Below, in pieces: positions 1,704 through 58,657 of a DNA stretch of 64,000 nt. This DNA is from Bacteroidota bacterium (GTDB taxonomy: Bacteria; Bacteroidota; Ignavibacteria; SZUA-365). Position 1 is the stretch's first letter. Each line of letters opens with the position of its first letter. The stretch lies in contig JARYLZ010000008.1 of the NCBI GenBank assembly GCA_029907355.1, forward strand, positions 1-64,000, in the 5' to 3' direction. The notes under the pieces are model-generated. The model had not been told where the DNA came from. It did no database searches and worked only from the letters and a program-made list of their open reading frames with translations. The position numbers were made by a program, and so were the translations under genes.

Positions 1704-1754
1704 CGGGAAAGGAGCATTCGAACGCGAGGCCGCAACGAAGAAACGGAGGATTGC

Positions 1755-1779
1755 CGGTACGGGGAAGAGCGCCGTACCG
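1755..1779. terminator. Bidirectional hairpin between convergent genes
   Basis: CGGTACGG and CCGTACCG form a perfect 8-bp stem with a 9-nt loop, placed between the stop of the barrel gene and the stop of rsgA. No clear T-run follows on either strand, so it may be a weak or factor-assisted terminator, or it may protect 3' ends. Confidence 0.4.
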
Positions 1780-1800
1780 AATCGCACGTTTCCGGTGCAG

Positions 1801-2892
1801 TCAACGTTCTTCCCGTTCGCTGTCGAGGATCTGGAGGTAATTCCGGTAACGGAGGGGGTGGATAGCACCTTCGGCGACGGCGGCAATGACGGCACAATCG
1901 GGTTCGTGCGTGTGCGTACAGGAGGGGAAACGGCACCGGTCGGCGCGTGCGACGAACTCGGGGTAATACGTGTGCAGGTCGGCAGGGTCGAAATGGTAGA
2001 GCCCGAATTCCCGTATCCCTGGAGTATCCGCGATGTAGCCGCCGTTCGGGAGCGCGTACAGGACGCTTTTCGTTGTCGTGTGCGTCCCACGCGAGCTCTG
2101 AACGCTGATCGTATCGGTCTTCCCCGACGCCGAGGGGACGAGACGGTTGAGAAGGCTCGTCTTCCCCACACCGGAATGGCCGCAGAAAGCGGAAATCGCG
2201 TCGCGCAGGAGGTTCCCGAGTTCCTCGATCCCTTCCCCTGTCACACAACTCGTGTACAGGACCGTGTACCCGACATCGCGATAGACATCGGCGATTTCCT
2301 CCACCGCCGAAAAGTCCTCGTCGTCGACGAGATCCATTTTGTTGATGACGATGAAGGCATCGACCCCGCCCATGGCGGAAGCGATGAGGTACCGGTCGAT
2401 GAGACCGGGTTTCAGGAGCTCGTTCGTCGCGGCGGCGACGACGACGATGCGGTCGGGGTTCGCGACGATGACGTCTGCGAACCCTCTGTCCGATACCGCA
2501 GTCCGAAGGAGGACGCGTTTCCGCGGGTAGACGTGCGTGACCACGGCGTCGCCTTCACCCGCAGAAACGTAACGAACGCGATCCCCGACGGCGAGCAGGC
2601 TCGAGTTCGGGTTGCCCGTCGTCGTGGAGCGGCGCGGGCGCGCGCGGATCTCCTCGTCGCCGTCGAGAAGGAGCACCGACGGTCCGCCCATCTCGACGAC
2701 GAGTGCATCCCGCTCGTTCTCCGGCCTCACGATCGGGTGTTTGCGCGGGGCGCTGCGCTTCTTCAGGAGGAAGTCGTGGTCGCTCTCCCCTTCCCCCTCG
2801 TAGCGCCAGCGTGCCTCCCCCTTCCGCCAGAGCTTTTCGATGTTCTTGCGTTTCTCGACTCGACGTGGAGAATCGGGTTCGTTTTGATCCAT
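1801..2892 (-). CDS. rsgA: Ribosome small-subunit-dependent GTPase RsgA
   Basis: RsgA is a circularly permuted GTPase that checks late maturation of the 30S subunit. The motifs occur in the permuted order: G4 INKMDLVD near residue 183, then G1 GHSGVGKTSLLN near 238, then G3 DTPG near 289, followed by a C-terminal zinc knuckle CRFPSCTHTHEPDC near 320. An OB-fold region (VGDRVRYV and following) precedes the GTPase, after a charged N-terminal extension of roughly 75 residues that may contact rRNA. The ORF track starts at 2907, but the ATG at 2892 (MDQNEP) has GGAG about 5 nt upstream and is preferred. It is transcribed divergently from the MFS gene. Confidence 0.93.
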   Translation of the reverse strand: MDQNEPDSPRRVEKRKNIEKLWRKGEARWRYEGEGESDHDFLLKKRSAPRKHPIVRPENERDALVVEMGGPSVLLLDGDEEIRARPRRSTTTGNPNSSLLAVGDRVRYVSAGEGDAVVTHVYPRKRVLLRTAVSDRGFADVIVANPDRIVVVAAATNELLKPGLIDRYLIASAMGGVDAFIVINKMDLVDDEDFSAVEEIADVYRDVGYTVLYTSCVTGEGIEELGNLLRDAISAFCGHSGVGKTSLLNRLVPSASGKTDTISVQSSRGTHTTTKSVLYALPNGGYIADTPGIREFGLYHFDPADLHTYYPEFVARADRCRFPSCTHTHEPDCAVIAAVAEGAIHPLRYRNYLQILDSEREER

Positions 2893-3050
2893 GAAACTCC
2901 AGACCATTCAGGAAGGCGAGCGTGTCGTACACACCCCTCTGAAAACTACGCGCGGAGGAAACGGCAGGCAAGGATAGAGAGGCGCGAGGATGGCGGATCG
3001 CGTGAAAAATCCTATTTTCTCACGCTTGCATTCATTCTCCGCCATTACCC

Positions 3051-4355
3051 ATGACATTCATCCGCAACCCCTTGAAGCACGACCGTCGTTTCCGGATGCG
3101 TCGGGGGCTCAACTGGTCGACGCTGGGGTTTACGTATGCCGTGCTGTACATGGCGCGGTACAACCTTTCGTTCGCGAACAAGTCCCTCTCGGACAGTTAC
3201 GGATGGGACAAGACGCAGATCGGGACCATCATCACCGCCGCCTTGACGTTGTACGGCGTTTCCGCGCTCTTCAACGGGCCGATCGCCGACCGCATCGGCG
3301 GGAAGCGCGCCATGCTCATCGGTGCCGCCGGGGCAGCCTTTTTCAATCTCCTCTTCGGTTTCGGTGCGTACCTGGGTTTTCTCGGGAAAGGACCGCTTCT
3401 CCTCGGGTACTTCGCGACGGTGTGGGCCCTGAACAGCTATTTCCAGTCATACAGCGCCCTGGCGCTCATCAAAGTGAACTCGGGGTGGTTCCATATCCGG
3501 GAACGAGGGGTTTTCTCGGCGATTTTCGGGTCGATGATCCAGAGCGGGCGCGCACTCATTTTTTTCCTCGGCGGCGTGATCGTCACGGTGCTCCCTTGGC
3601 AGTGGGTGTTCTTCATCCCCGCCGCCATCGTCGGCGCCATGGCGATGATGACCGCGGCGTTCGTTCGCGATACGCCCGCCGATGCCGGGCTTCCCCCATT
3701 GGACACCGCCGATGCCACCAGCGGGTACACCGGTCCGGTGAACTTCCGTTTCGTTTTCCGGCGCGTCTTCACCAACCCCATCACCATCACGATCGCCGTC
3801 GCCGAGTTCTGCACGGGTTTCGTACGGCACGGGTTCGAGCAGTGGTTCCCCCGTTACATGCAGGAAGCCCAGCATCTCCGGCTCGATTCGGCGGTTTTCC
3901 AGAAAGGCGCCTTCGCCGTCGTCGCCGCAGGCATTGCGGGCGCGTTCGTCGCAGGGACGGTGTCGGACTGGTTCTTCTCCTCACGGAGAACTCCCGTGGC
4001 ATTCATCGGGTACACGTTGCAGATCGCCGCATTGAGCGCCGTCTGGCTTTCGACGGACCTGACGGTGATCATCGCGGCATTCATCGTCAACTCGATGGCG
4101 ATCAGCATGGTGCACTCGATGCTCTCCGGCACGGCATCGATGGATTTCGGAGGCCAGAAAGCGGCCGCGACGGCGGCGGGCATGTTCGACGGCATGCAGT
4201 ACCTCGGCGGCGCATCGGTCGGCATCGGTATGGGGTACCTGCTCGACAGGTTCGGCTGGGCCGCCTGGGGTCCGGGCATGATCGGCTTCGCATCCGTCGG
4301 CGCGCTTCTCATGCTACGGCTCTGGAACGCTCGGCCCACGCCTGCGGGCCGTTGA
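3051..4355 (+). CDS. MFS transporter, organophosphate:phosphate antiporter-like (GlpT/UhpC type)
   Basis: This is an inner-membrane carrier of about 434 aa with around 12 hydrophobic segments. The N-terminal pattern RRGLNWSTLGFTYAVLYMAR, with YNLSFANKSL and an early GPIADRIGGKR loop, matches the GlpT/UhpT/UhpC family, which exchanges sugar phosphates or glycerol phosphate for inorganic phosphate. The substrate cannot be read from sequence. No good Shine-Dalgarno precedes the ATG, which is common in this phylum. The next gene starts 63 bp downstream on the same strand and may be cotranscribed. Confidence 0.85.
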   Translation: MTFIRNPLKHDRRFRMRRGLNWSTLGFTYAVLYMARYNLSFANKSLSDSYGWDKTQIGTIITAALTLYGVSALFNGPIADRIGGKRAMLIGAAGAAFFNLLFGFGAYLGFLGKGPLLLGYFATVWALNSYFQSYSALALIKVNSGWFHIRERGVFSAIFGSMIQSGRALIFFLGGVIVTVLPWQWVFFIPAAIVGAMAMMTAAFVRDTPADAGLPPLDTADATSGYTGPVNFRFVFRRVFTNPITITIAVAEFCTGFVRHGFEQWFPRYMQEAQHLRLDSAVFQKGAFAVVAAGIAGAFVAGTVSDWFFSSRRTPVAFIGYTLQIAALSAVWLSTDLTVIIAAFIVNSMAISMVHSMLSGTASMDFGGQKAAATAAGMFDGMQYLGGASVGIGMGYLLDRFGWAAWGPGMIGFASVGALLMLRLWNARPTPAGR

Positions 4356-4418
4356 GTTCGAACCGCGGTTCCACCCTTTCCCACGCGGATAGCTCTATTC
4401 CTCAATGGACGGGTACTC

Positions 4419-5138
4419 ATGAAACAGCACTGCTTCGACGTCATCATCCTCATCGGGCGGCCCGCTTCCGGCAAGTCCGAGATCATCGACTATCTGAAAA
4501 AAACGCCGTACGAAGAGCGTCTTCGGCGATTCGGCATCGGGCACTTCGACGAGATAGACGATTTCCCGATGCTCTGGGCATGGTTCGAGGAAGACGCCAT
4601 TCTCGAGCGCATTCTCGGCAAGCCCCGTCTCCACACCGACGCTCGTGGGTATTTCCTCCACCGCTATTTCTGGGATCTCCTCATCGAGCGCATTTCGCTC
4701 GAGTACGACAAGCTGATGCGGGACCCCTCGTACCACGAGAAGCGGACGACCGTTATCGAGTTCTCACGAGGGACGGAACACGGCGGTTACGCCGCGGCGT
4801 TCCCGCACCTGAGCCCGCGCATCCTCGAACGCGCGGTGATCGTCTACGTCGACGTCACCTACGAGGAGTCTCTCCGGAAGAACCGCCGCCGATTCAACCC
4901 GGCGCGCCCGGATAGCATCCTCGAGCACGGCTTGCCGGACGAAAAGCTGGAGAGGTTGTACAAGGAAGTCGACTGGGAAGAAATCGCCTCCGCTTCCCCC
5001 ACCCATATCGATGTGAAGGGAATCCTGGTCCCGTACGTCGTGTTCCACAACATGCCGAGCAAAACGGACGACCCCGCGCTTCTCGGTCCCGCCTTGGAAG
5101 AGATCTTCTCCCGAGCGCGTGCACTCGTGGCACGTTGA
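4419..5138 (+). CDS. P-loop kinase-like protein of unknown substrate
   Basis: This 239-aa soluble protein has a Walker A motif near the N-terminus (IGRPASGKSEIIDYL) and a later VIVYVDVTYEESLRKNRRR stretch that looks like the lid/Walker B-proximal region of small-molecule kinases. A GHFDEIDDFPMLW segment follows the P-loop and could bind substrate or metal. It resembles the broad adenylate/shikimate/gluconate kinase fold but none of the named families clearly. It lies downstream of the organophosphate transporter, so phosphorylation of an imported or exported metabolite is possible; that is inference only. Confidence 0.75.
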   Translation: MKQHCFDVIILIGRPASGKSEIIDYLKKTPYEERLRRFGIGHFDEIDDFPMLWAWFEEDAILERILGKPRLHTDARGYFLHRYFWDLLIERISLEYDKLMRDPSYHEKRTTVIEFSRGTEHGGYAAAFPHLSPRILERAVIVYVDVTYEESLRKNRRRFNPARPDSILEHGLPDEKLERLYKEVDWEEIASASPTHIDVKGILVPYVVFHNMPSKTDDPALLGPALEEIFSRARALVAR

Positions 5139-8847: not shown

Positions 8848-11574
8848 ATGAACATACACAATCTCGAACCGCTCTTTCACCCTCGGCGCATCGCCCTCGT
8901 GGGTGTCACACCGAACCCGCAGAGCGTCGGCGGGAAAATCCTCTCGAACCTCGTCGGCGGTGGGTTCCGCGGCGTCGTGTACCCTGTCAGCCCGGGGTCC
9001 GAGGCGGTGCTCGGCATCCCCTGCTTCCCCGACATGGCGAGCCTTCCGAAGTCACCGGACCTCGCCATCATCTGTGCGCCGGCCGAACAAGTCCCCGCGC
9101 TCGTGCGCGCGTGCGGGGAATGCGGGACGGGCGGCATCATCGTCGTGTCCGCAGGATTCCGGGAAATCGGGCAAACGGGAAGGGCGCTGGAGGAAGCCGT
9201 GGCGGCGGAACGCGCGCGTTTCCCCGGCATGCGTCTTCTCGGGCCGAATTGCCTCGGCATCATCGTCCCCGGTACGAACATGAATGCCAGTTTCGCGGGC
9301 GGCATGCCGCGCGACGGGCATGTGGCCTTCATTTCGCAATCGGGCGCACTCTGCTCATCCGTCCTCGACTGGGCCATCGAGGAGCGCGTGGGGTTTTCGT
9401 ACTTCGTTTCCATCGGTAACGCACTCGACGTGGACGTGGGCGACCTGATCGATTTCTTCGGCGAGGACGAGAAGACGAAATCCATCATCCTGTACATCGA
9501 GTCCATCGGGCGGGCGCGGCAGTTCATGAGCGCCGCGCGCTCCTTCGCGCGTTCGAAACCGATCCTCGCGTACAAGGCGGGGCGCTTCGGTGCGTCGGCG
9601 GCAGCGGCAGCATCCCACACGGGGGCCATGGCCAGCGAGGATGCCGTCTACGACGCCGCGTTCCAACGGGCCGGCTTGGCGCGTGTCTTCGACATCGGGG
9701 AAATATTCGATTGCGCCGAGCTCCTCGGGCGGCAGAAAATTCCGGCGGGGCCTCGCCTGTGCATCCTCACGAATGCGGGCGGGCCGGGCGTCATGGCGAG
9801 CGACGCCCTCCTCGCCTCGAACGGCGTGCTCGCGACGCTCTCCGACGAGTCTATGGCACGCCTCAACCAGTGTCTCCCCCCGATGTGGTCGCACGGCAAT
9901 CCCGTCGACGTGCTCGGCGACGCACGTTCCAAGCGTTTCGAGAAAGCGATGGATGTCCTCCTCGAGGATGCGGGCATCGACGCCCTGCTCGTCATCCTGA
10001 CCCCGCAAGCGATGACGAACCCCGATACGATCGCCAAGGTTGTCGGTGAGCGCGCCCGGACCACGCAGAAACCCGTGCTCGCGGCATGGCTCGGCGGGGC
10101 GAGCATGCGGGAGGGCATCCGCATCCTCAACGATGCCGGCGTCCCGACGTACACGACGCCGGAACAGGCTGTCCGGGCGTTCATGACCCTCGTCTCGTGG
10201 GGGCGTAATCTCGAAATCCTTTACGAAACGCCACGCGACGTCGCGGTGCAGATACCCTACGACCGGAAACAGATCCGGAACCACTTCCACTCGCTCGTTG
10301 CGGAAGAGGGGGACATCCTGCCCGAGCACATCTCGAAGATGCTGCTCGATGCCTACGGCATCCCCGCCACGCGGCCGTACCCGGCTTCCACGGCCGACGA
10401 GGCGGCGGAGATCGCGGACCGTATCGGCTACCCCGTCGTCCTGAAAATCCTCTCGCGCGACATCACCCACAAGAGCGACGTCGGCGGAGTCGCCCTCGGC
10501 CTCACGGGCACGGACGCCGTCCGGTCCGCTTTCCGCTCGATGATCGACACGGCGAGGGAGCGCGCACCGGCGGCGCGTCTCGACGGCGTGACGGTTCAGC
10601 GGATGGTCTCCCGGAGGGATTCCGTCGAGCTGATCCTCGGATGCCGGAAAGACCCCGTCTTCGGCACCGTGATCATGGCAGGGATGGGGGGCGTGACGGC
10701 GGAATTGTTCGGCGACCGCGCGCTGGGGTTCCCCCCGCTGAACGAGCGCCTCGCCCGGCGCATGCTCGAATCGCTGAAAATCTGGCCGCTCCTGACAGGC
10801 TACCGCGGCCGCCCGCCCATGAATATCGACAGCCTCATCGAGGCATTGATCCGGCTCTCCTACCTCGCCGCGGACTACCCGGAAATCGTCGAGCTCGATA
10901 TCAATCCCTTGCTCGTGACGACTACCGACACCATCGCCCTCGATGCGCGGATCGTTCTCGACCGGAATGCGATGGGGAAAGACCAGAAACCGTACGCGCA
11001 TCTCGCCCTCCGTCCTTACCCCGAGGAACTCGTCCGCACGGCGACGCTCAAGGACGGGACACCCGTCACCCTCCGCCCGATCCGACCGGAAGACGAGCCG
11101 CTCTGGTTCGATATGCTCCGCAGTTGCTCCCGCGAATCCATCTACACGCGGTTCCGTTCCTTCTTCCACTGGGAATCTCACCACGTCGCCGTGCGCTACT
11201 GCTACATCGATTACGAACGCGAGATCGCCATCGTCGCCGAGCGGACCGAAAACGAGAAGCGCTATCTCATCGGCGTGGGTCGCCTCATCGCGGAGCCGGA
11301 CCTGCACCGCGCGGAGTATGCCGTTCTCGTCACGGATGCGTGGCAGAACCGCGGTCTTGGGGGGCTCTTGACCGACTACTGCATGGAGATCGCACGCATG
11401 TGGGGAATCCGCAAGGTCATCGCCCAGACGACCAGCGACAACCCCCGCATGGTCGCCGTTTTCCGCGAGCGCGATTTCGCCATCATCCCGGACCCCGACG
11501 GTTCGCTCGTCGACGTCGAAAAGGATATCCCGGATACGGCAGGTCCCTCAACTGAGCTCCCTGCGGGGAACTGA
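8848..11574 (+). CDS. Fused ADP-forming acyl-CoA synthetase / GNAT protein acetyltransferase (Pat/YfiQ type)
   Basis: Proteins of this design (Pat, YfiQ, Pka) acetylate lysines, classically to switch off acetyl-CoA synthetase; the synthetase half usually acts as a sensor. Order of domains: CoA-binding Rossmann domain from FHPRRIALVGVTPNPQSVGG, succinyl-CoA-ligase-like domain with the SHTGAMASED loop near residue 255, ATP-grasp domain around residues 490-710 (GYPVVLKILS, ITHKSDVGGVALGL), and a C-terminal GNAT domain with VLVTDAWQNRGLGGLLTDY near residue 845. In the alpha-type phosphorylation loop the histidine is retained (SHTG), so residual synthetase activity cannot be excluded. The ATG at 8848 gives 908 aa, the normal size, and has GAGG upstream; the 1154-aa ORF start is rejected. 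Confidence 0.9.
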   Translation: MNIHNLEPLFHPRRIALVGVTPNPQSVGGKILSNLVGGGFRGVVYPVSPGSEAVLGIPCFPDMASLPKSPDLAIICAPAEQVPALVRACGECGTGGIIVVSAGFREIGQTGRALEEAVAAERARFPGMRLLGPNCLGIIVPGTNMNASFAGGMPRDGHVAFISQSGALCSSVLDWAIEERVGFSYFVSIGNALDVDVGDLIDFFGEDEKTKSIILYIESIGRARQFMSAARSFARSKPILAYKAGRFGASAAAAASHTGAMASEDAVYDAAFQRAGLARVFDIGEIFDCAELLGRQKIPAGPRLCILTNAGGPGVMASDALLASNGVLATLSDESMARLNQCLPPMWSHGNPVDVLGDARSKRFEKAMDVLLEDAGIDALLVILTPQAMTNPDTIAKVVGERARTTQKPVLAAWLGGASMREGIRILNDAGVPTYTTPEQAVRAFMTLVSWGRNLEILYETPRDVAVQIPYDRKQIRNHFHSLVAEEGDILPEHISKMLLDAYGIPATRPYPASTADEAAEIADRIGYPVVLKILSRDITHKSDVGGVALGLTGTDAVRSAFRSMIDTARERAPAARLDGVTVQRMVSRRDSVELILGCRKDPVFGTVIMAGMGGVTAELFGDRALGFPPLNERLARRMLESLKIWPLLTGYRGRPPMNIDSLIEALIRLSYLAADYPEIVELDINPLLVTTTDTIALDARIVLDRNAMGKDQKPYAHLALRPYPEELVRTATLKDGTPVTLRPIRPEDEPLWFDMLRSCSRESIYTRFRSFFHWESHHVAVRYCYIDYEREIAIVAERTENEKRYLIGVGRLIAEPDLHRAEYAVLVTDAWQNRGLGGLLTDYCMEIARMWGIRKVIAQTTSDNPRMVAVFRERDFAIIPDPDGSLVDVEKDIPDTAGPSTELPAGN

Positions 11575-11942
11575 CAGGCGATCGCAAGACGGCTCATCCT
11601 TCATCCGCCTGCTTCACCCCTTTCCCCCGAATTCCTCGGCCACCGCGAGGAAATGATATGAGGGACCGCATGGTACCTCGTCGATGACATGTGCCGATGC
11701 CGTTCATGCCCTTTCCCCGGGAAAATCGCGGATGGTTTTCTTCCCACAGTCAAAGGAACCGGCCGGCGAAGCGTTACGCCATCGCTGCGCTTTCCTCGGG
11801 GAAGATCCCCGACGAAGATATCGAGAGACACGGCAAGGAAGCAGGCGGAACAGGGGCGACCATCGGGTGGGCATCATGGGAACGACGCTGAGGGTGCATT
11901 TCCGTTCGTTTCTCCCGGTATGCTTCCGGCGAGGCCGTCCAT
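11575..11942. other. Convergent gap, no gene seen
   Basis: This 368-bp region lies between the stops of the acetyltransferase and the GT-C gene. Several short overlapping ORFs occur here with arginine/proline-rich, low-credibility translations. One hairpin is visible at its left side; nothing else was recognised. Confidence 0.5.
11632..11652. terminator. Hairpin between convergent genes
   Basis: TTCCTCG and CGAGGAA pair perfectly around a 7-nt loop, 58 bp after the acetyltransferase stop. There is no U-tract, so terminator function is tentative. Confidence 0.3.
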
Positions 11943-13517
11943 TCACCGCTGCAGGCGCTCGTACACGATATAGAACGCGTTCGAATACGCTCGGCGGTAG
12001 TATGTTGCGAGAGTTGAATCGTGCTCTATCCAGTAGCGCGCGATTTCCGCGCCGTCGGGACTCGCTTCGCGTCCGACGATCACCCACGTGAACGCACGGG
12101 AAAGAACTTCCGGGTTTCGAAACAGGGTGTCGCGGTTCAACGCCGTCGTGAACCGCGCGAGGCGGATCCCGCTCGTCTGCATGATTCGGTGCGATTGCCC
12201 CGTCCCCGTCACCGCCAGGATACGACCGCCTTTGTCATGTGCTCCGAGGAACTCTCCGACAGCGACGGCATACGGGGTTTGCCGGTAATAGAAGCCGCCC
12301 GCGGCGTCCGCGACGGTCACGACGTTCCCCGCCTGACGCGCGAACTGCACAACAGCCGAGGCGAGGAGGAGCAGGATGAGGATGACTCGGAGAAGGGGTT
12401 GCGTGATACGCTTGCCCGCGGCTTCCGCGGCGAACGCGGCCGAAAGCGCGAGCAACGGCATGAGGAGAAGGACGTACCGCGAGTTCCACCAGCGGGTCAT
12501 CTCTGCGACACCCAGGTACAACGAGAGGATCGTGAACGCGGGGGGGGTAAGAAACGCGCTGAAGAGAAACACCGTTGCCGCGCGGGGACGACAACGCGCA
12601 AGGCGCAGGGCGCCGAACACGGAGACGAGGAGGGGGGCGACGCCGACTGCCGCGAAGAGCGTGGCCACGTAGATGGAAAGCACGTTCCATGCCTGGAGAT
12701 AGTACTGCCCCCGGACCGGCCGGTGTTTCGCTTGCCATGCGGCCGAGTAGTACTCGGCCCGGTGGAATGCCAGCGCGTCGCCGAACCGCGTATGGTTCCA
12801 CACCAACCACAAGGCGATGCCGAGAAAACAGGCAACGGCAAGCGCGGCCGATCGGACCGTATCCTTCGCTCCCATGCGCCGGCGCACAGCGTCCCACACG
12901 AGCGCGAGGAAGACGATGCAAGCGAACGGCCAAGCCTCGTAACGGCAGAGCGTCGCAGCCGCCGTCGACAGGGCGGCGAGGGCGAGGCGGCGGACGCCCC
13001 GCTGCGGCCGCAGATCGCGCATATGCGCCCAGGCATTGTACACGGCGGCGATCATGAAAAAGAGCGCGATGGTTTCCGTCATCGCCGTCATGCTGATGTA
13101 GAGCATGTTCGGGTTGAGGGCGTAGAACACGGCTGCGAAGAGGCCGGCCCCGGGCGATGCGGTCAGTTCCGCCGCCAGCCGGTAGAGCATCACCGCACTC
13201 CATGCGAGGAGAGGGAGGCAAACGACGGCACCGGCGAGCCCCGACGCGAAGAGGAAATCCACGCGGGCGAACGGGGCGAACAACAAAGCGGGGAGAGGAA
13301 GCCATACGGTGCCGAGCCAGTGGAGTCCGGGGGAGATGGAATCCGTAATGAGACGGGCGCCGACGAGGCGCGAATTCGCATCCCCGTAGAAAGCGAAGAA
13401 ACGCGGTTCGATGAGGGAAGACAGGAGTGCGACGGCGACGCCGAGCGCGCAAACACCCGTAAAGATGGCCCGCGGAATGGCATCCATGCCGAGGTTTCGA
13501 TCGAACGCTCGTGCCAT
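11943..13517 (-). CDS. GT-C membrane glycosyltransferase (GT39/ArnT-like)
   Basis: This 524-aa polytopic protein has about 11-12 hydrophobic segments. An early acidic loop FYGDANSRLVGARL follows the first transmembrane helix, where GT-C enzymes carry their catalytic aspartate, and the NPNMLYISMTAMTET stretch matches GT39/GT83 proteins. Such enzymes take sugar from polyprenyl-phosphate carriers on the outer face of the inner membrane. It starts 3 bp after the acyltransferase stop and is the last gene of the proposed exopolysaccharide run. A role in decorating the polymer or another glycan is inferred. Confidence 0.78.
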   Translation of the reverse strand: MARAFDRNLGMDAIPRAIFTGVCALGVAVALLSSLIEPRFFAFYGDANSRLVGARLITDSISPGLHWLGTVWLPLPALLFAPFARVDFLFASGLAGAVVCLPLLAWSAVMLYRLAAELTASPGAGLFAAVFYALNPNMLYISMTAMTETIALFFMIAAVYNAWAHMRDLRPQRGVRRLALAALSTAAATLCRYEAWPFACIVFLALVWDAVRRRMGAKDTVRSAALAVACFLGIALWLVWNHTRFGDALAFHRAEYYSAAWQAKHRPVRGQYYLQAWNVLSIYVATLFAAVGVAPLLVSVFGALRLARCRPRAATVFLFSAFLTPPAFTILSLYLGVAEMTRWWNSRYVLLLMPLLALSAAFAAEAAGKRITQPLLRVILILLLLASAVVQFARQAGNVVTVADAAGGFYYRQTPYAVAVGEFLGAHDKGGRILAVTGTGQSHRIMQTSGIRLARFTTALNRDTLFRNPEVLSRAFTWVIVGREASPDGAEIARYWIEHDSTLATYYRRAYSNAFYIVYERLQR

Positions 13518-13520
13518 GGG

Positions 13521-14699
13521 TCAGATCCCGAACAGGAGCACATAGGAAAGGAAAACGGTGAAACCGAAACGCAGGGAACGGTTCAGCACGACCCGTCCCC
13601 GCTCGGCATACGTCAGGAGAATCCCGACCCCGAAGCTGAGAACGATGAAGACCGCCGCGAGGAGGAGACCGTTCTCGAACGTGAAGGCGTTCCGCCAGAC
13701 CCTGCTGAACGACCAGATCCATGTATTGCCGAACACGACCAGGACGTGGGCCGTGTAGATGTGCAGGGTCTTCCTGCTCAATTCGGAGTAGAACCGCTCG
13801 AAGCGGCGCGTGAGATTGAACACGACCGAGTAGGCGCCGATGAGGATCAGCGAGAGGCCCACTTTTTCACAGAAGAGAAACGGGCTGGAGATGTAGAAGT
13901 CGTGCGGGGGGAGGAGATGCCGCCCGTACACGCCCGCCGTCAACGCGAGGATCGTCACGACGATACCCAACTCGCCGATTCTCTGGGCGAATTTCCACGT
14001 GTCGTTTTCCCGGAGCAGGGCGAGCGCGTACGAACCGATCGCTGCCCCGATGAAGAGAAAACCGCTGTGCGGGAAGATCGAAAAAAAACTCCCGCCTTTA
14101 TAGGTCAGGTAATGCGCGAAAAACGGCGGGAGAAAAGCGAACCAGTCGACCCGGTGCACCCAGGGTGTCGCGGCGGCGATGAGCGTGCCGACGATGGTAG
14201 CCGAAGCGATGAACGCCCGGTCGCTCCTGCTCAGCGCCATGACACCGACCAGCATGAGGAGGGACACTCCGATGATGTTGAGCGTACCGACGCGGAAGAA
14301 GGCGAACCACCGGTCCGCGGGGAGGACGAACAGGTCCCATACCCTGTTGCCCGGGAAGATCAGCATGTAATCGACGAGGATGAGGAGTAGGGCGCGGCGG
14401 ATGCGCTTTCGGAGAATACGAGGCAGCACACGGCCGCGCTCATCGCGCCGGATGCCGACGAAATTCACCATCCCCGAAATGAGGAGGAATGTCGGCGAGG
14501 TCAGTCCGCGAAGCCACTGGTAAATCATCCCGAAAAAACCGTCTTGCGGGATTTCCGCCGGGATGACGTACGTGCCTACCGTATGCCCCTGGATCATCAT
14601 GAAGACGGCCATGAGGCGGGCGAAATCCAGGACAGCGAACCGCGGGTGGCGGCTTACGACGGCAGGGGGAACGGGCCGGTCCTCGGAAAAATCAGTCAT
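13521..14699 (-). CDS. Multi-pass membrane acyltransferase (DUF1624/HGSNAT-like)
   Basis: The 392-aa protein has about ten membrane helices. Its opening, FAVLDFARLMAVFMMIQGHT, has the R/D...M...H arrangement of the acyltransferase-3 and heparan-alpha-glucosaminide acetyltransferase-like families, in which the histidine is catalytic; SPTFLLISGMVNFVGIRR continues that match. Such proteins move acetyl groups across the inner membrane on to glycans. The gene lies 84 bp after the outer-membrane barrel gene and 3 bp before the GT-C gene. O-acetylation of the secreted polymer would be the natural role, as with IcaC or WssH-like proteins in other systems, but this is inference. Confidence 0.75.
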   Translation of the reverse strand: MTDFSEDRPVPPAVVSRHPRFAVLDFARLMAVFMMIQGHTVGTYVIPAEIPQDGFFGMIYQWLRGLTSPTFLLISGMVNFVGIRRDERGRVLPRILRKRIRRALLLILVDYMLIFPGNRVWDLFVLPADRWFAFFRVGTLNIIGVSLLMLVGVMALSRSDRAFIASATIVGTLIAAATPWVHRVDWFAFLPPFFAHYLTYKGGSFFSIFPHSGFLFIGAAIGSYALALLRENDTWKFAQRIGELGIVVTILALTAGVYGRHLLPPHDFYISSPFLFCEKVGLSLILIGAYSVVFNLTRRFERFYSELSRKTLHIYTAHVLVVFGNTWIWSFSRVWRNAFTFENGLLLAAVFIVLSFGVGILLTYAERGRVVLNRSLRFGFTVFLSYVLLFGI

Positions 14700-14783
14700 G
14701 GGTCGGGGCTTGCGAGCAAGCGGTCCGAGACTCGCTTGGGCCGGAGAAAGATACGAGGAAATCCGATTCGACGGCGCCGGCTA

Positions 14784-16199
14784 TCACAGACCGATTTCCA
14801 CCTCGACCCAGACGCGGTGGATGTTGTAATCGTGGTACGCGTCGTTCGAGGCGTTACGGGTGAAATGGTATCCCGCCCCGGCGGTCAGGAGCGCAGTACC
14901 GTCCGCACGCATCAATACGGGCGTCGCGAGGAGGACCTGCGCGGTAAACCGCTCGTCCTTCCGCTGGGGAAACCCCGGCAGATCATCCCCGTCGAGGCTC
15001 GCTGCCGAACGCGGGTAACGGCGCCGCGCAGCGGCGAGTTCCGTTTCCATCGCGAGGCGCGGCATGATGCCTGCCCGAAACGTCGCTACCGCCTCGTCGG
15101 CCTCGTAGCCGTAACGATCCTCGAAGAAATCGTCCTCCGTCGCCGCTGCCAAGCCACGCTGATCCACATAACGTGCCGTGTTGCTCGGATTGATCCTCCG
15201 GAGCACGGAAAGCGTAAGGGAGTTGCTCGCGGCGATGTTCAGGACGGCGCCGCCGCCGAAGACGACCTGGCTCGCCGACGGCGTCGAAAACTCCGAGACG
15301 ATCTTCTTCTTCGGTTTGACGCCGCCCTTTCCTTTCCCGCTGTTCCCCGTTTCGATGAACACCGTGTCATGAACGGTCTCCGTATACCGTTTCACGCCGT
15401 ACTCGGTGAAACAGAACAATTCCGTCGCCTGCCCCACCCGGGCGCTCAGCGTCAACGAGCCGTCGTTCTCGAGATGCGTGAACTGGACGAATGAGGGGTA
15501 TTGTTTGAACGCGAACTCGTACTCCGCACGCGCCATGAGCGGTCCCGAGACGTGCTTCCGGAGCATCGCGGAGACCGACGCTCTCCGGAAATCGTAGAAC
15601 GCGAAGACGGGCTCGTCGAAACGCGCCGCGACGACCGGTTTGACGATGAGGTAGGTGACGAGGCTGTCGCTGAACGCCTCTCCCGTCGAGGTACTCGCAG
15701 GTACGCACGATCCCGTTTCCCCGCCGTCCCATGGAGACGCCCGATGGGGCATTCCGCCCGCCCGTTCGCCATCGTGCAGGCGTTCCTCCTCGTCGCTTTC
15801 CTCTTCCATTTCCTCCCCGCCGATCTCTTCTCCGTTGTCCTCCGCCTCCTCGTCGGTATCTGCCGTGTGGAAATCCACCTGCCATTGGATATAGATGCCC
15901 GCCGTGTGCTGGTGGTAAGACCGGGTATCGTACGTGCGGAACAGCGCGGCTCCGGAGTACCAGAACGGCTGGAGGAAGACGTAATCCCCCCCGATGTCGT
16001 ACGAGAACGCGGCGAAAAGCTGGTGATAGACATCGGCTCGCTTGTCGTGGAACGCCCAGGAATTATCGTCGTAGGTACTCGCGAGAAAGGCAGCGGCGTT
16101 GAACTGCGCACGGGCGTTCCCGCCGAGGGCGAGGAAGGAAATCACGACAACGCCGACCGCGTGGACCCGCATCGCGGCGGCTGGAGCGAAAGGTTTCAT
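14784..16199 (-). CDS. Outer-membrane beta-barrel protein with acidic insert, exopolysaccharide cluster
   Basis: The listed 660-aa ORF includes a shadow N-terminus; the real start is the ATG at 16199 (MKPFAPAAAMRV), which overlaps the glycosyltransferase stop as ATGA and gives 471 aa. A signal peptide ends near AQFNAAAF. The rest alternates aromatic beta-strands and closes with HRVWVEVEIGL, an outer-membrane C-terminal strand. Around residues 105-140 lies a strongly acidic insert (DTDEEAEDNGEEIGGEEMEE). No TPR domain like that of PgaA is present. By position it is the candidate export pore or scaffold for the polymer, or a YaiO-like partner barrel. Function is unproven. Confidence 0.75.
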   Translation of the reverse strand: MKPFAPAAAMRVHAVGVVVISFLALGGNARAQFNAAAFLASTYDDNSWAFHDKRADVYHQLFAAFSYDIGGDYVFLQPFWYSGAALFRTYDTRSYHQHTAGIYIQWQVDFHTADTDEEAEDNGEEIGGEEMEEESDEEERLHDGERAGGMPHRASPWDGGETGSCVPASTSTGEAFSDSLVTYLIVKPVVAARFDEPVFAFYDFRRASVSAMLRKHVSGPLMARAEYEFAFKQYPSFVQFTHLENDGSLTLSARVGQATELFCFTEYGVKRYTETVHDTVFIETGNSGKGKGGVKPKKKIVSEFSTPSASQVVFGGGAVLNIAASNSLTLSVLRRINPSNTARYVDQRGLAAATEDDFFEDRYGYEADEAVATFRAGIMPRLAMETELAAARRRYPRSAASLDGDDLPGFPQRKDERFTAQVLLATPVLMRADGTALLTAGAGYHFTRNASNDAYHDYNIHRVWVEVEIGL

Positions 16200-21419: not shown

Positions 21420-23819
21420 TCATTTTACCACGGTAATGGGAATCACGCTGGCCGCATCGCCTGTCTTCAGGACTCCGTAATATGTGCCCGAAGAGGGGAA
21501 ATCCCTCATGTCCACGGGAATGGACAAGCGACCGTCTCCCGCCGTGAGAACGGTATGGGTAAGATCGAGCACCTGCCTCCCTGTCCTGTCGTACATGACG
21601 AGCGAGGGCGCCGCACGCCAGCCGGGCGAGAGAAAGATCGTGATGACCGACCGGCTTGTGACGGGGTTCGGGGCGACCGTTTCGAGCCGGGCACCGCCGC
21701 CGTCGAAGAAAGAAAAAAAGACTTCCGCCTCCGGAAACAAGGTCTCCGTCCCGTCCATATCCACGCAGCGCAGGCGGTAGCGGACGGTGTCGCCCCCTCG
21801 GTCTCCGCACGGGTCCGCCAGGGAATAGCGCGCTCCGCTCCCATCGCCGCTTCGTGCCGGGAAGAAAGCCCGTTGCTCCCAACCGCGCCCCGCGTGCCGT
21901 TCGACGAGAAACCCCACAACGCCCTCCTCTTGCGCCGTTTCCCATCGGATGAAGGCGGAGGAACCCAACGGTTCGACCGAAAAGAGGGAGAGCGTGACCG
22001 GCGTGGGGTACGATGCGTTCGCGAGCACCATGCCGTATTCGCCGGTACAGAAAGCGACGCCTCCCGCGAGAGCGGCACCGTAAACGGCATACGTCGTGTG
22101 CACCGGGTCGGGTGTCCAGTTCCACCCTCCGTCGCTGCTCCGGAGGATCAGCCCGCCTTCGCCCACGGCGAAGAGATCCGTCGGAGAAGTCTGCACGACG
22201 CGGTAGATCGGCACCGTCACGTTGGTCGTCGTCGAGTCCCAATCGGCACCTGCATTCGTCGTGGCCAGCAACACGCCGGCGTCCCCGGAAACCCACCCCC
22301 TGTCCGCCGAGAGGACGACAGAGAAGAGTGCGTCGAGCGTGTAGGAGGTTTGAGGAACCCATGTCGCACCGCCGTTCGTCGTCCGAAGAATGACGCCGTC
22401 CGCCCCGACGGCCGTCCCGAGCATGTCGGTGAGCATATCCACCGCGAAGAGGTCCTTGAACGTCCCGCTGGGGACGGGTGTCCATGCCGCGCCCCCGTTG
22501 GTGGACTTGAGGATTCTGCCGCCGGCGCCGACGGCGAAGCCGACGGTCGGCGTCGGGAAATCGATGCCGTTCAGCGCGCTCGTCACCCCGCTCGGTACGA
22601 CGGTCCAGACCGCTCCTCCGTCCGTTGTCCGGAGGATCACACCGCCCGACCCGCATGCCCATGCCCGCAGCGCGTCGACAGCGCACACGGCATAGAGGGG
22701 GAGTTGTGTCCCTGAATTCTGCACTTGCCACGTCCATCCCCCGTCGCTGCTTTTCACGATGGTACCGGCGTCTCCCACGGCCCAGACCGCGTTGACGACC
22801 GCCCCCGCCACCGCGTTGAGTGCGGCCCGTGCACCCGTGACGACGCTGCCGAACACCATCGCCGACGAGGAGCGCGTGATCTCTCCCTCCAGTCCGACGA
22901 GGACCACCGCGGTCGTCGTGCCCCCCCCCGCCACCATTCCCTCGAAGCCGTTCGTCGTCCCCGAAGCGAGGGCGCTCCATGTCGCTCCGCCGTCCGTCGA
23001 CCTGAGGATCGTCCCGTTCTCGCCGCATGCATAACCGTTCATCGCGTCGAGAAACACGACCTTGTTGAGGTCCTGGGTCGTACCCGTGCCTGCCGATCGT
23101 GTCCACGTATTTCCGCCGTTCGTCGTCATGAGTACGGTTCCGTACGTTCCCGCTGCCCATCCGTGCTGTGCATCGAGGAAGAAGACGCCGAGGAGATCCG
23201 CCATAGGACCGAACACGGTCTGCGCGACCCAGGTCGCCCCGCCGTCCGTCGTGCGGCGGATGGTTTTTCCCGCACCGACACACCACCCCCTCTGCTGGTC
23301 GACGAAGCAGATGTCGTTGAGATTACTCGAGGCGTTGCTGGCCTGCGGCGTCCATGTCGTCCCGTTCGTGCTAAAGAAGATGAGACCGTTGTCCCCTACG
23401 CAATAGATACCGCTTCCCGTGCTCGTGACTTGGTTGATCCCTTCGGTGGTGGGACGCGTCAGCGGTACCCAGGTCGTACCCCCGTCCGTCGTTGAGAGGA
23501 CCACGCCGTCGTCCCCCGCAGCAAGGGCGGTGGTGGGGCCGATCGCTTTCACGCCGCGGAGAAACGAGTAGACGCTGCTTTCCTGCGTTTCCCATGTCGC
23601 GCCCCCGTTCGTCGTCCGGACGATGATCCCCGCGTTCCCTACCGCCCAACCTATGGGCGACGCCGTGGCGAAGGACACGTTCCAGAGATCGTTCCCTTGA
23701 GGTCTGGGGTTTCTCCATCCCCATTGCGCTGCGGTGCTCCCCGCCATGAGGGCGAGGCACGAAAGGATAAAAAGCACAGGGTTTCCGGATATCCGCAGCA
23801 ATCTGCTCAAGATGCTCAT
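21420..23819 (-). CDS. Secreted YCF48/HCF136-like repeat protein with T9SS sorting domain (1)
   Basis: The 799-aa protein has a signal peptide (LMAGSTAAQ), about fourteen repeats of roughly 45 residues built on the pattern GTIL(R/K)TTNGGATW, and a C-terminal domain. The repeats match the YCF48/BNR beta-propeller family, which forms blades and in plants is a photosystem II assembly factor; here the protein is extracellular and unrelated to photosynthesis. The end ([15 protein letters not shown] ... [13 protein letters not shown] ... ITVVK) has the PNP..., GTYY and terminal-basic features of the T9SS type A sorting domain. It would be exported by the PorU/PorV machine encoded at 49-55 kb. Its stop is 4 bp before the deacetylase-like gene. 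Confidence 0.88.
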
Positions 23820-23900
23820 GTTCTCTCAGAGGTGAGGTATTGTCGGGGAAATGACAGAGATGTTCTTTTTCACCGTGTTACCCTAATGCATCGGGGAAAC

Positions 23901-26045
23901 TCAATGTGTGAAATGAACGGCCTGGAGACTCCGATTCCCATTCCACTCTAAAACGAGGAAGTATATACCTGCGGTCGGGAAATCGTCCGCGTAAAGGGTG
24001 AGTTCTCCAGTCCCGCCAACCGAAGACCGCGAGGCAAGACGGTGGAGAAGCGATGCACTGAGATCGCGAACGAGACAGCCGTAGACATCATAGATGCGGA
24101 GCGTGATGTCCGCTAGCGGAAAGCCCACACCCTCGACGCGGGCTGTGCTCCGCACGGGCACGATCGTTTCTCGCGTGAACGGGTTCGGGTAAGCAGGGCC
24201 GAGCTGAAACGTCTGCTCTTCCCTATCCCGCTCGACATGCACCACATGCTGCGTGTTCGTGAGAACCGTCCCGTAATCGCCCGATATCATCACGGTTCCA
24301 TCCCGCGCGTCGATGCAGAACAGGTCGTGGAACGTCGGGCAATACTGCCTGCACCAATGTATTCCCCCGTCCGAGGAGCGAAGGACGAGTCCGGAATCGC
24401 CGACCGCCCAGAGGTCCGAGCGGTCGAGACCGGCGATGACGTACAGAGATCCCCCGACGCCCGAGGTCTGCACCACCCACGTTTCCCCGCCGTCCGTCGT
24501 GTGGGCGATGGAACCCTCGTCGCCCACCGACCAGCCTTCCGAGATCCCCATGAAACGGACCCAGTACATGGTCCGGGATGTGCCTGTACGGCTTCTCCGC
24601 CATGAACCCCCGCCGTCGGTGCTCCGGAGGACAATTCCGTTTTCGCCAACGACGACTACGTTGTCGGCATCGAAAGCATGGAGACCATACAGGTATTCTA
24701 CGACGCCGGCGTCCCTGCGCACCCATGTCGCGCCCCCGTCCGTCGTTCGGAGTATGCATCCGAGTTCGCCGACAGCCCAGCCGTCCCATTCGTTCGCGAA
24801 ATCCACGGCGAGCAGAATATTCGAGTACGGGTTCGTCTGCTGGATCCACGTCCTGCCGCCGTCCCGGGTGTGGAGAATGATCCCATATTCGCCGACCGCC
24901 CATGTCTTCGAAGCGGAAACGGTTTTCCCCCCATAGAGGTTGTTTCGGAAGCCCGTGTTTTCCTCCGTCCACGTCGCCCCGCCGTCCGTCGTGTGAATGA
25001 CGATGCCGCTTTCACCGAAGCCCCAGCCGTTTCGGCCGTCGGCGAAGCTGATCCAGTTCACGCTTTTCCGTGTCCCGAACGAAACCGCTCTCCACGAGAC
25101 GCCGGCATCGGTGGAGAGAAGCATATACCCGAAATCCCCGACGACAATGATGTTCTGGTCCTCACCCCCCACGCCTTCGAGCACTTCATCCCCGAGACCG
25201 CTCTCGATCCGTCTCCATAAAGCGCCTCCGTCCATGGAGTGCAGTAGAATGCCCCCGTCGCAGGCGGCCCAGAGGCCGATCGGCCCGGCGTAGAGCGCAT
25301 TGATGTTGCGGTTGATACCGGACTGCTGGGTGTCCCAGCGCAAACCGCCGTTCACCGTCGTATAGAGGGATCCGCCCGAACCCGCTACCCAGCCCGTCGT
25401 CTGGTTCACGAAAACGATGTCGAAAAGGTCGGGGCGTCCCTGGACGTTTCTCCGGTCCCATGATGCCCCTCCGTCCGTCGTTCTCAGGACGGTTCCCGAT
25501 GCGCCCGCTGCGTAACCGTGTGTCGCGGAAACGAAGTAAACCGCGTTGAGCGTGACGGATACGCCGGTGGATTGCACGGCCCACGTTTCCCCGCCGTCGG
25601 TTGTCCGTATCATCGTTCCGTTGTCCCCGCATGCCCAACCGTTCAAGGCATCCAGGAAGACCACGTCGTTCAGACCTTCCGTCGTACCCGTCGCGCATTC
25701 CTTCCACTCGTACCCACCGTTCGTCGTCCTCATGCAGGTTCCGTTATCACCGACGGCGAAAGCGACGCGATCGTCGACGACGGCGACGGCGATGAGGTCA
25801 TCCGTGAGGCCGTCCATCTCGCTGTACCATGTCGAGCCGCCATCGAACGAATGGAGAATCGTCCCGTCGTCGCCTACGGACCACGTATTCGAGCGATCCG
25901 CGAAACCGACGCTCGTGAGACGGTTTCCCTGGGGTTTCGGGTTGGACCACATCAACCGTCCCTGAGCGAAGGCGGCGGTAGGGAAGAGGAGAAGAATGAA
26001 AAATGAAATCTGTCGGAGGATGGGGACGCAGGTGTCGAGGCGCAT
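23901..26045 (-). CDS. Secreted YCF48/HCF136-like repeat protein with T9SS sorting domain (2)
   Basis: This is a paralogue of the next gene downstream, with the same opening after the signal peptide (SNPKPQGNRLTSVGFAD here, [17 protein letters not shown] there) and about twelve YCF48-type propeller repeats ([16 protein letters not shown]). The C-terminus (GPAYPNPFTRETIVPV ... TAGIYFLVLEWNGN) is a T9SS/FlgD-like sorting domain. The ORF track starts at 26111; the ATG at 26045 (MRLDTCVPILRQ) directly precedes the signal peptide and lies 64 bp after a good TATATTTG promoter, so it is preferred and gives 714 aa. The two paralogues probably arose by tandem duplication. The ligand is unknown. Confidence 0.87.
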   Translation of the reverse strand: MRLDTCVPILRQISFFILLLFPTAAFAQGRLMWSNPKPQGNRLTSVGFADRSNTWSVGDDGTILHSFDGGSTWYSEMDGLTDDLIAVAVVDDRVAFAVGDNGTCMRTTNGGYEWKECATGTTEGLNDVVFLDALNGWACGDNGTMIRTTDGGETWAVQSTGVSVTLNAVYFVSATHGYAAGASGTVLRTTDGGASWDRRNVQGRPDLFDIVFVNQTTGWVAGSGGSLYTTVNGGLRWDTQQSGINRNINALYAGPIGLWAACDGGILLHSMDGGALWRRIESGLGDEVLEGVGGEDQNIIVVGDFGYMLLSTDAGVSWRAVSFGTRKSVNWISFADGRNGWGFGESGIVIHTTDGGATWTEENTGFRNNLYGGKTVSASKTWAVGEYGIILHTRDGGRTWIQQTNPYSNILLAVDFANEWDGWAVGELGCILRTTDGGATWVRRDAGVVEYLYGLHAFDADNVVVVGENGIVLRSTDGGGSWRRSRTGTSRTMYWVRFMGISEGWSVGDEGSIAHTTDGGETWVVQTSGVGGSLYVIAGLDRSDLWAVGDSGLVLRSSDGGIHWCRQYCPTFHDLFCIDARDGTVMISGDYGTVLTNTQHVVHVERDREEQTFQLGPAYPNPFTRETIVPVRSTARVEGVGFPLADITLRIYDVYGCLVRDLSASLLHRLASRSSVGGTGELTLYADDFPTAGIYFLVLEWNGNRSLQAVHFTH

Positions 26046-56890: not shown

Positions 56891-57460
56891 ATGGAAAGAT
56901 TCAGCATCGCGTGCATGGGAATCGTTTTCTTCTTGTGCACCTCAGGCATGTCGGGACAGTCGAGCGCGGGTGCGCTCCAACCTCTTTCGCGTGAAGCCGT
57001 GACGCTTTGGAGCACCTCAGCCGTGCCCGCCAACGCCCCACAGAACGAGGACATGTTCAAGAACAACACCTTGTGGGCTGTGGGATTCCACTTGGGTCTC
57101 CTGTCGGGTATAGGGGTCAGTGGACGTTTTCACCCGCCTGGGCGTTTTGCATTCCAGTTGACGGCGGGCGGCATCGGGCTCAAGGACGTCGTGACATTCA
57201 ACAGCGGGCTGGAAGTGCAGTTCGATTTCGACACCGACCGGAGAACGCGTTTCTATGGCTACGCCGCTGCGGGATATTACTACTGGGAAGACAAGGCCGG
57301 CGTCCAGGATATCGGCCCGTTCCGCGCAGGTCTCGGTGTGGCGTACGAGTGGGATATTTCCCCGAAGCTGATCTTCATGGCGAACCTCGGTGTCACGTAC
57401 TTCAGTACGGGTACGGTGCTTCCCATCCCCCAGGCAGGGCTCTACTACTATTTCAACTGA
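56891..57460 (+). CDS. Small outer-membrane beta-barrel protein of unknown function
   Basis: This 189-aa protein has a signal peptide (MERFSIACMGIVFFLCTSGM, cleaved near GQSSAG) and a short acidic/proline linker. About eight amphipathic strands follow (LWAVGFHLGLLSGIGVSGRF, RFYGYAAAGYYYW, AGLGVAYEWDISP), ending in a terminal aromatic strand AGLYYYFN. This is the plan of a small 8-stranded outer-membrane barrel (OmpW/OmpX-like size), but no named family was recognised. It has a TATGTTTG promoter and strong SD. Its 3' end overlaps the convergent phosphatase gene by 8 bp. Confidence 0.8.
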   Translation: MERFSIACMGIVFFLCTSGMSGQSSAGALQPLSREAVTLWSTSAVPANAPQNEDMFKNNTLWAVGFHLGLLSGIGVSGRFHPPGRFAFQLTAGGIGLKDVVTFNSGLEVQFDFDTDRRTRFYGYAAAGYYYWEDKAGVQDIGPFRAGLGVAYEWDISPKLIFMANLGVTYFSTGTVLPIPQAGLYYYFN

Positions 57461-58208
57461 ACCCCGATCCCCGCAGCAGTGACGGTCCACGAGAATCCGC
57501 GATTTCCAGGAGATCCGCGAAAGTCTCGATCGTGAAATCCGGCTCGTGCGGAATGAGTTCCGCTACGGGGTGAAAGCCGTAGAGTGCTGCACAGCAGCGT
57601 ATCCCCGCCGCTTTTGCGGCGGCGATATCGTACGGCGAGTCTCCGACGACGAGAGCTTCGGATGCCGGTATCGCGGTGCGTGCAAGCGCGGCGATAAAGG
57701 GGCCCGGCGACGGTTTGATCCCCGCCGGCGAGTCGCCGCCGATGATGATCTCGAAATACGGCCGGATACCCAACCCCTGGAGTATGCGTTCAATGAAGTC
57801 GCCCGGTTTGTTCGAGACGACGGCCATGCGGGCTGGCCGAAGGAGTGGGAGCGTTTCCGCAACGCCGGGGTAGAGAACGGTCCGATCGAGAAGCCGCTTT
57901 CCGTATTCATCCGAGAACGCTTCTACTGCCTCGTCTCCCGATACGCTTTCCACACCAACCGCGGAGGTAGGGAAACTCCCAGCTATTGTGGCTGGGAATT
58001 CCGGCCCCGATACGCTTTCCACACCAACCGCGGAGAGCGCCTGGGTCACGAAGCTGCGTATTCCCCGCCCGACGAAGGAAAGAATACGCCCCTCATCCAG
58101 CGGCGGGATTCCGTACCGCACGAGCATGCCGTTGAGCGCCGCTGCGATGTCCGATCTCGAGTCGATGAGCGTCCCGTCGAGATCGAAAAGGAGAAGTCTT
58201 ATCGCCAT
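57453..58208 (-). CDS. gph: HAD-family phosphoglycolate phosphatase-like protein with in-frame insertion
   Basis: Phosphoglycolate phosphatases clear 2-phosphoglycolate made by DNA repair or oxygenation. The ATG at 58208 (MAIRLLLFDLDGTLIDS) opens directly on the HAD motif I DLDGT; a GTG start at 58247 is an alternative. FVGRGIRSFVTQAL is the cap helix region; VVSNKPGDFIERILQGLG is motif II, and GDSPYDIAAAKAAGIR is motif IV. The protein is 251 aa, about 23 longer than usual, because SAVGVESVSG occurs twice, around PEFPATIAGSFPT, in the cap domain. Without the extra 69 bp it would be 228 aa, a standard length. The reading frame is kept, so activity may survive. Confidence 0.88.
   Translation of the reverse strand: MAIRLLLFDLDGTLIDSRSDIAAALNGMLVRYGIPPLDEGRILSFVGRGIRSFVTQALSAVGVESVSGPEFPATIAGSFPTSAVGVESVSGDEAVEAFSDEYGKRLLDRTVLYPGVAETLPLLRPARMAVVSNKPGDFIERILQGLGIRPYFEIIIGGDSPAGIKPSPGPFIAALARTAIPASEALVVGDSPYDIAAAKAAGIRCCAALYGFHPVAELIPHEPDFTIETFADLLEIADSRGPSLLRGSGFS
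57937..58035. repeat. 30-bp direct repeat flanking a palindrome, inside gph
   Basis: CCCGATACGCTTTCCACACC and the following ten bases occur identically at 57937-57966 and 58006-58035. The 39-bp spacer holds an imperfect palindrome, GGAAACTCCCAGC - TATTGTG - GCTGGGAATTCC. The period is 69 bp, a multiple of three. Confidence 0.9.
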
Positions 58209-58657
58209 TGCGTCATTCGGTTCATCTTCCGCACGGGAATTGGACACGATCTCTCTGAGGCTCCCGGCGGGTCGGGGAACATACGAACACCGCCGGGAAA
58301 AATCGACCGGGGGCGAAAATCACGTACCATCTCATCGCATGCAGGAACGGGCAGGCGTACACGAGGGGCGAAGCGGTACCAGGATATGACCGTCGATTTC
58401 GGTACAGAGGTCATGTACAATGCAGCGGGGAGGAACAATTCCACGTATCCGGCGGAACTTTTCGGATACCGCTCCCGCCCGACGATGGAGAATGTTCTTT
58501 CCCCTGGATGGGGATTCGATTTCCCCTGGGGTCTCATCGACGGCTTTACGCATGCGTGGCGGTATCGATCCTCATGAGCGGAGCCGCTTCATTCCGTATT
58601 TCCCTTGATTCACCGCAACATCTTTCGTAGATTTGATTCCCGCACCGTGTGGCGGAT
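58209..58657. other. Intergenic region before the tRNA genes, no gene seen
   Basis: Overlapping short ORFs on both strands are not protein-like. The right end carries the tRNA promoter. The left end would hold the gph promoter, which I could not define. Confidence 0.5.
58605..58635 (+). promoter_or_regulatory. Bacteroidota-type promoter for the tRNA pair
   Basis: TTG at 58605-58607, a 20-nt spacer and an exact TAGATTTG at 58628-58635, ending 22 bp before tRNA-Lys. This is the best match to the TTG/TAnnTTTG consensus in the window. Confidence 0.65.

Follow-up and report, generated by a model that had tools for sequence, protein, structure and literature searches.

When a CRISPR system acquires a spacer, the target lying between two staggered attacks is duplicated, so that an event away from the array should leave the order target, spacer, target, with target copies of repeat length. 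Most of what is known of off-target spacer integration comes from Cas1-Cas2 that was overexpressed or purified, and in the E. coli experiments the inserts are reportedly flanked by a duplication of repeat length. Casposons and miniature casposons combine a Cas1-family integrase with target duplication, as does the proposal made below. Off-target integration has been described in vitro (PMC6895254; PMC8047081) and, by Nivala 2018 according to PMC11788318 and PMC9456107, in vivo in E. coli. Also relevant are the Rickettsia palindromic elements, which measure about 150 bp and occur as multi-copy families (PMC10969869), and to which the initial annotation had likened the locus considered here.

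That locus lies in a window of 64 kb, by which I mean the whole stretch of DNA that was analysed. Its features, in window coordinates, are these:

57453..58247, minus strand: gph-type HAD phosphatase of 264 aa by phosphoglycolate phosphatase models, carrying the insertion in frame
57937..57966, minus strand: target copy 2 (reading with the gene), 30 bp, exact repeat, CCCGATACGCTTTCCACACCAACCGCGGAG
57967..58005, no strand assigned: insert of 39 bp, spacer-like, an imperfect hairpin, encoding PEFPATIAGSFPT with flanking codons
58006..58035, minus strand: target copy 1 (reading with the gene), 30 bp, exact repeat, CCCGATACGCTTTCCACACCAACCGCGGAG
58034..58037, minus strand: junction CT/CT, in common with the leader/repeat junction of CRISPR array 1 (see below), a weak and post hoc resemblance

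The exact repeat of 30 bp with a period of 69 stands just where the initial annotation put it. The two copies of CCCGATACGCTTTCCACACCAACCGCGGAG are 100% identical, so the event is recent. The 39-bp spacer, described there as an imperfect palindrome, does fold as an imperfect hairpin: as DNA it reaches -10.3 kcal/mol (z -4.4), which none of 200 shuffles equalled and which 1.2% of random 39-mers from the same genome equal. No Rfam RNA was found at the insertion site, only two tRNAs nearby. The 64-kb window holds no other structure comparable to the repeat pair, the second-longest exact repeat at separations of at most 400 nt being 17 nt. The scan for direct repeats covered 2.12 Mb of the 3.25-Mb genome, an extent within which exact 30-mers at such spacings are expected by chance about 4e-9 times. 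With arrays excluded, the gph pair is the sole isolated two-copy exact repeat of at least 20 nt with a unique spacer in those 2.12 Mb. Elsewhere in the window, at 22358-25886, there are about 16 degenerate repeats with a period of 123-126 bp; in a protein each would correspond to a repeat unit of about 41 aa.

The 264-aa frame scores 169 bits against NF009695 and 149 bits against TIGR01449, in both cases below the curated cut-off. The solved phosphoglycolate phosphatases 2nyv and 2yy6 align to residues 14-71 and 105-252, and the insertion falls between. It adds 69 bp, or 23 codons, in frame to the cap region, as had been claimed. The gph homologues of 11 same-family relatives align on either side of it, and in this comparison, of the kind urged by the initial annotation, the 23 aa are absent from all 11. 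Ten of them lack any insert at this position and one carries an unrelated insertion, so this position in the cap domain tolerates insertions and the event in gph is specific to this lineage. The exceptional relative (L013; G003:C21, about 1935-2115) has a different and longer sequence at the same cap-domain position, with no direct repeats, and was rejected as a counterpart of the gph insert.

An insertion into coding sequence, in frame, with a duplicated target and a palindromic insert, is what the locus looks like, as the initial annotation had it; the further step, to an element of the Rickettsia type, is not supported. The initial annotation had asked for a genome-wide search for the spacer and palindrome with flanking duplications, and no other copy was found in the genome; the palindrome is single-copy in the family as well. 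A search of the genome with the whole 99 bp gave only partial similarities of 14-23 bp. The pattern of the hairpin core has one other match in the genome (on C113) and one in the family, in one relative; the C113 match lacks a flanking duplication and was rejected as a second copy. A palindromic element family was rejected for want of other copies of insert or palindrome in genome or family. Where the Rickettsia elements form multi-copy palindrome families of about 100-150 bp with a conserved peptide, here there is a single copy, in its own genome and in the family, of 39 bp (69 bp with the duplication), and it is because the insert is so short and has no relatives in the genome that the reading fails in its specific form. 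Two observations together, no other copy and relatives carrying the same 23 aa, had been named as telling against it; the first was made, and the relatives proved to lack the 23 aa.

Two CRISPR arrays emerged from the listing of close direct repeats in the 2.12 Mb, beside degenerate multi-copy repeats:

L098 (G000:C95) 9184-13063: array 1, a 30-nt repeat in 57 copies, its 56 spacers measuring 35-41 nt
L098 (G000:C95) 9184-15056: the array-1 locus with its cas genes (cas2, a type I-B-like cas1, a cas4-like gene)
L070 (G000:C110) 887-5092: array 2, a 36-nt repeat in 58 copies, its spacers measuring 35-40 nt

Adjoining the leader end of array 1 are cas2 (TIGR01573), cas1 (401.7 bits against TIGR03641, the type I-B Cas1b model) and the cas4-like ORF, the last called by eye from its cysteines and position, with no NCBIfam match. 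This end is probably the leader end, judging from the position of the cas genes, from a degenerate repeat at the opposite end and from the direction in which such repeats usually read. A TIGR02221/DxTHG CRISPR-associated protein is encoded at L098 18256-19416. Array 2 is part of a type I-G system; the cas4-cas1 fusion of that system is split across two contigs by a contig break. The type I-G set, on L160 (G000:C156) and L070 (G000:C110), also has cas3g, csx17 and a 953-aa ORF with matches to Csb1/Cas7g and to Csb2 alike. In array 2, related sequence (TTTCGGACAT) occurs in the first spacer and in the last.

I propose that the gph insertion is an off-target integration of a CRISPR spacer, the likeliest of the readings considered, to which I give about an even chance. 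What is observed is a duplication, an insert, an array of the same dimensions, cas genes adjacent to that array and absence from relatives. The main argument is the match in dimensions, noticed post hoc, between the gph structure and one unit of array 1. The duplication is 30 bp and the array-1 repeat 30 nt; the 39-nt insert falls in the range of the array-1 spacers, of which 16 are 38 nt long, 10 are 39 nt and 10 are 40 nt (of 56). Under a flat null on repeat length and spacing, the probability of hitting both 30 and 35-41 is about 0.001, a rough figure and likewise post hoc. Cas1-Cas2 is encoded in the same genome, by the cas1, cas2 and cas4-like genes of array 1 besides the type I-G set with its cas4-cas1 fusion. 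The 30-mer in gph has no relation to the CRISPR repeat (identity at 5-6 of 30 positions, only CT/CT being common to the leader-repeat junction), and I therefore infer integration off target rather than in an array.

The course of events would be as follows. The Cas1-Cas2 integrase of the C95 array, with the Cas4-like protein, would have put a 39-bp prespacer into gph instead of the array, attacking the target strands 30 bp apart as in normal spacer acquisition, and gap filling would have left the 30 bp duplicated on both sides of the insert. A gain of 69 bp, or 23 codons, with no stop and at a position that tolerates insertion, would have kept the gene open. That it was the C95 integrase that made the insertion is suggested by the dimensions of its array, and the Gph protein presumably still works with its 23 extra aa.

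Several points weigh against this proposal. One is the dissimilarity of the 30-mer to the CRISPR repeat, together with the scant likeness of the target to the leader-repeat junction. No near-full match to the 39-mer, as a protospacer, was found in phages, plasmids, IMG/VR or its own genome; three 18-mer matches in IMG/VR and a 19-mer match in Virgibacillus were rejected as its source, being only 23/39 and 26/39 identical, at chance level. Most spacers have no known source (PMC8616872), so a missing protospacer says little for or against. Ruler motifs in the repeat help to set the duplicated length in type I systems (PMC6895254), and no such motif could be recognised in gph where one should lie. 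Finally, the strong hairpin in the insert would be a coincidence of a few percent. The hairpins of the array itself, on the other hand, speak for the proposal. In folding energy the insert ranks third of 114 (113 array spacers and itself), the two stronger being array-1 spacers. Against shuffles, 11 of the 56 spacers in array 1 are self-complementary at p<=0.05; the share is 7.4% for random fragments of the genome (binomial 0.002) and 6.6% for fragments from three viral contigs. By absolute folding energy, array 1 shows an excess only at the strong extreme, where 2 spacers reach -12 or below against 0.33 expected. Since array-1 spacers include stronger hairpins and are enriched in self-complementarity, a hairpin insert is unusual yet not foreign to this adaptation system.

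A looser scan gave one more case:

L107 (G000:C102) 10998-11031 and 11073-11105: second isolated repeat pair, diverged, with a period of 75

Its repeats, 30-33 bp long, differ by 3 mismatches and one indel. They stand directly upstream of an aminopeptidase-like gene, which I take from its motifs to be of the M1 type. No other copy of the insert was found. The spacer of about 41-44 nt (depending on the repeat end chosen) is at or above the array range, which counts against integration, and it folds as a hairpin with z -5.3, which 0.3% of the random genomic background equals. Hairpins in both isolated pairs could reflect an integration that prefers hairpins, a fold-back copying accident or, at C102, an unrelated regulatory structure.

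The second of these possibilities is the most serious rival in gph. In an accident of replication or repair, the polymerase would copy the 30 bp, stray, fold back upon itself to make a hairpin filler, re-anneal where the 30 bp begin and copy them again. The hairpin is then accounted for directly, and hairpin spacers in both of the isolated pairs in 2.12 Mb (against backgrounds of 1.2% and 0.3%) are compatible with fold-back duplication too. However, a length of 30 bp is not predicted, yet both pairs have repeats of about 30 bp; isolated repeat-filler-repeat events of other lengths were not seen in the 2.12 Mb, and a template for the hairpin arms was not found elsewhere in the genome. I consider such an accident rather unlikely. 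Inverted repeats within 4-5 nt of the insert ends in both gph and C102, with target duplications of about 30 bp, might instead point to a small mobile element, palindromic or with terminal inverted repeats (RPE-like or MITE-like). This is distinctly improbable: the inserts have no sequence in common, each is present only once, and I know of no bacterial transposase that combines a 30-bp duplication with a 39-bp cargo. As for an assembly artefact, the genome is a draft of 173 contigs, probably metagenome-derived, with 3.65% contamination. Against this, the insert is unique sequence and not a join of the repeated or chimeric kind, the reading frame is preserved and the contig, 66,308 bp long, runs on for about 8 kb between the site and its nearer end, so that an artefact would be very surprising.

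Returning to off-target integration, a broader version can be put forward only tentatively, and I incline to doubt it: that wild Cas1-Cas2 leaves off-target spacers in genes and intergenic regions (gph, C102), with a bias to self-complementary fragments visible in the array too, so that CRISPR adaptation would be a source of in-frame protein insertions. If the proposal for gph is true, the locus is a natural fossil in a conserved gene, which would mean that the enzymes of adaptation cause mutations in wild genomes and are able to make proteins longer. The case supplies a rule for searching as well: look for isolated pairs in which repeat and spacer are as long as in the array of the same genome.

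Of the known systems, Rickettsia palindromic elements resemble the gph insert in being palindromic and in frame within a coding gene, whereas the gph insert is not multi-copy, measures 39 bp against about 150 bp and has a long target duplication. Unlike casposons, it showed no casposon inverted repeats or other copies, and its dimensions match the local CRISPR array. As compared to the off-target integration in E. coli type I-E of Nivala et al. (2018), the genome here is natural and not subject to Cas1-Cas2 overexpression, the neighbouring Cas1 is type I-B-like with 30-nt repeats, and the insert is a hairpin of no known source, inside a gene and in frame. The likeness to that system lies in an insert of spacer length, flanked (there reportedly) by a duplication of repeat length, at a site outside the array, in a genome that encodes Cas1-Cas2.
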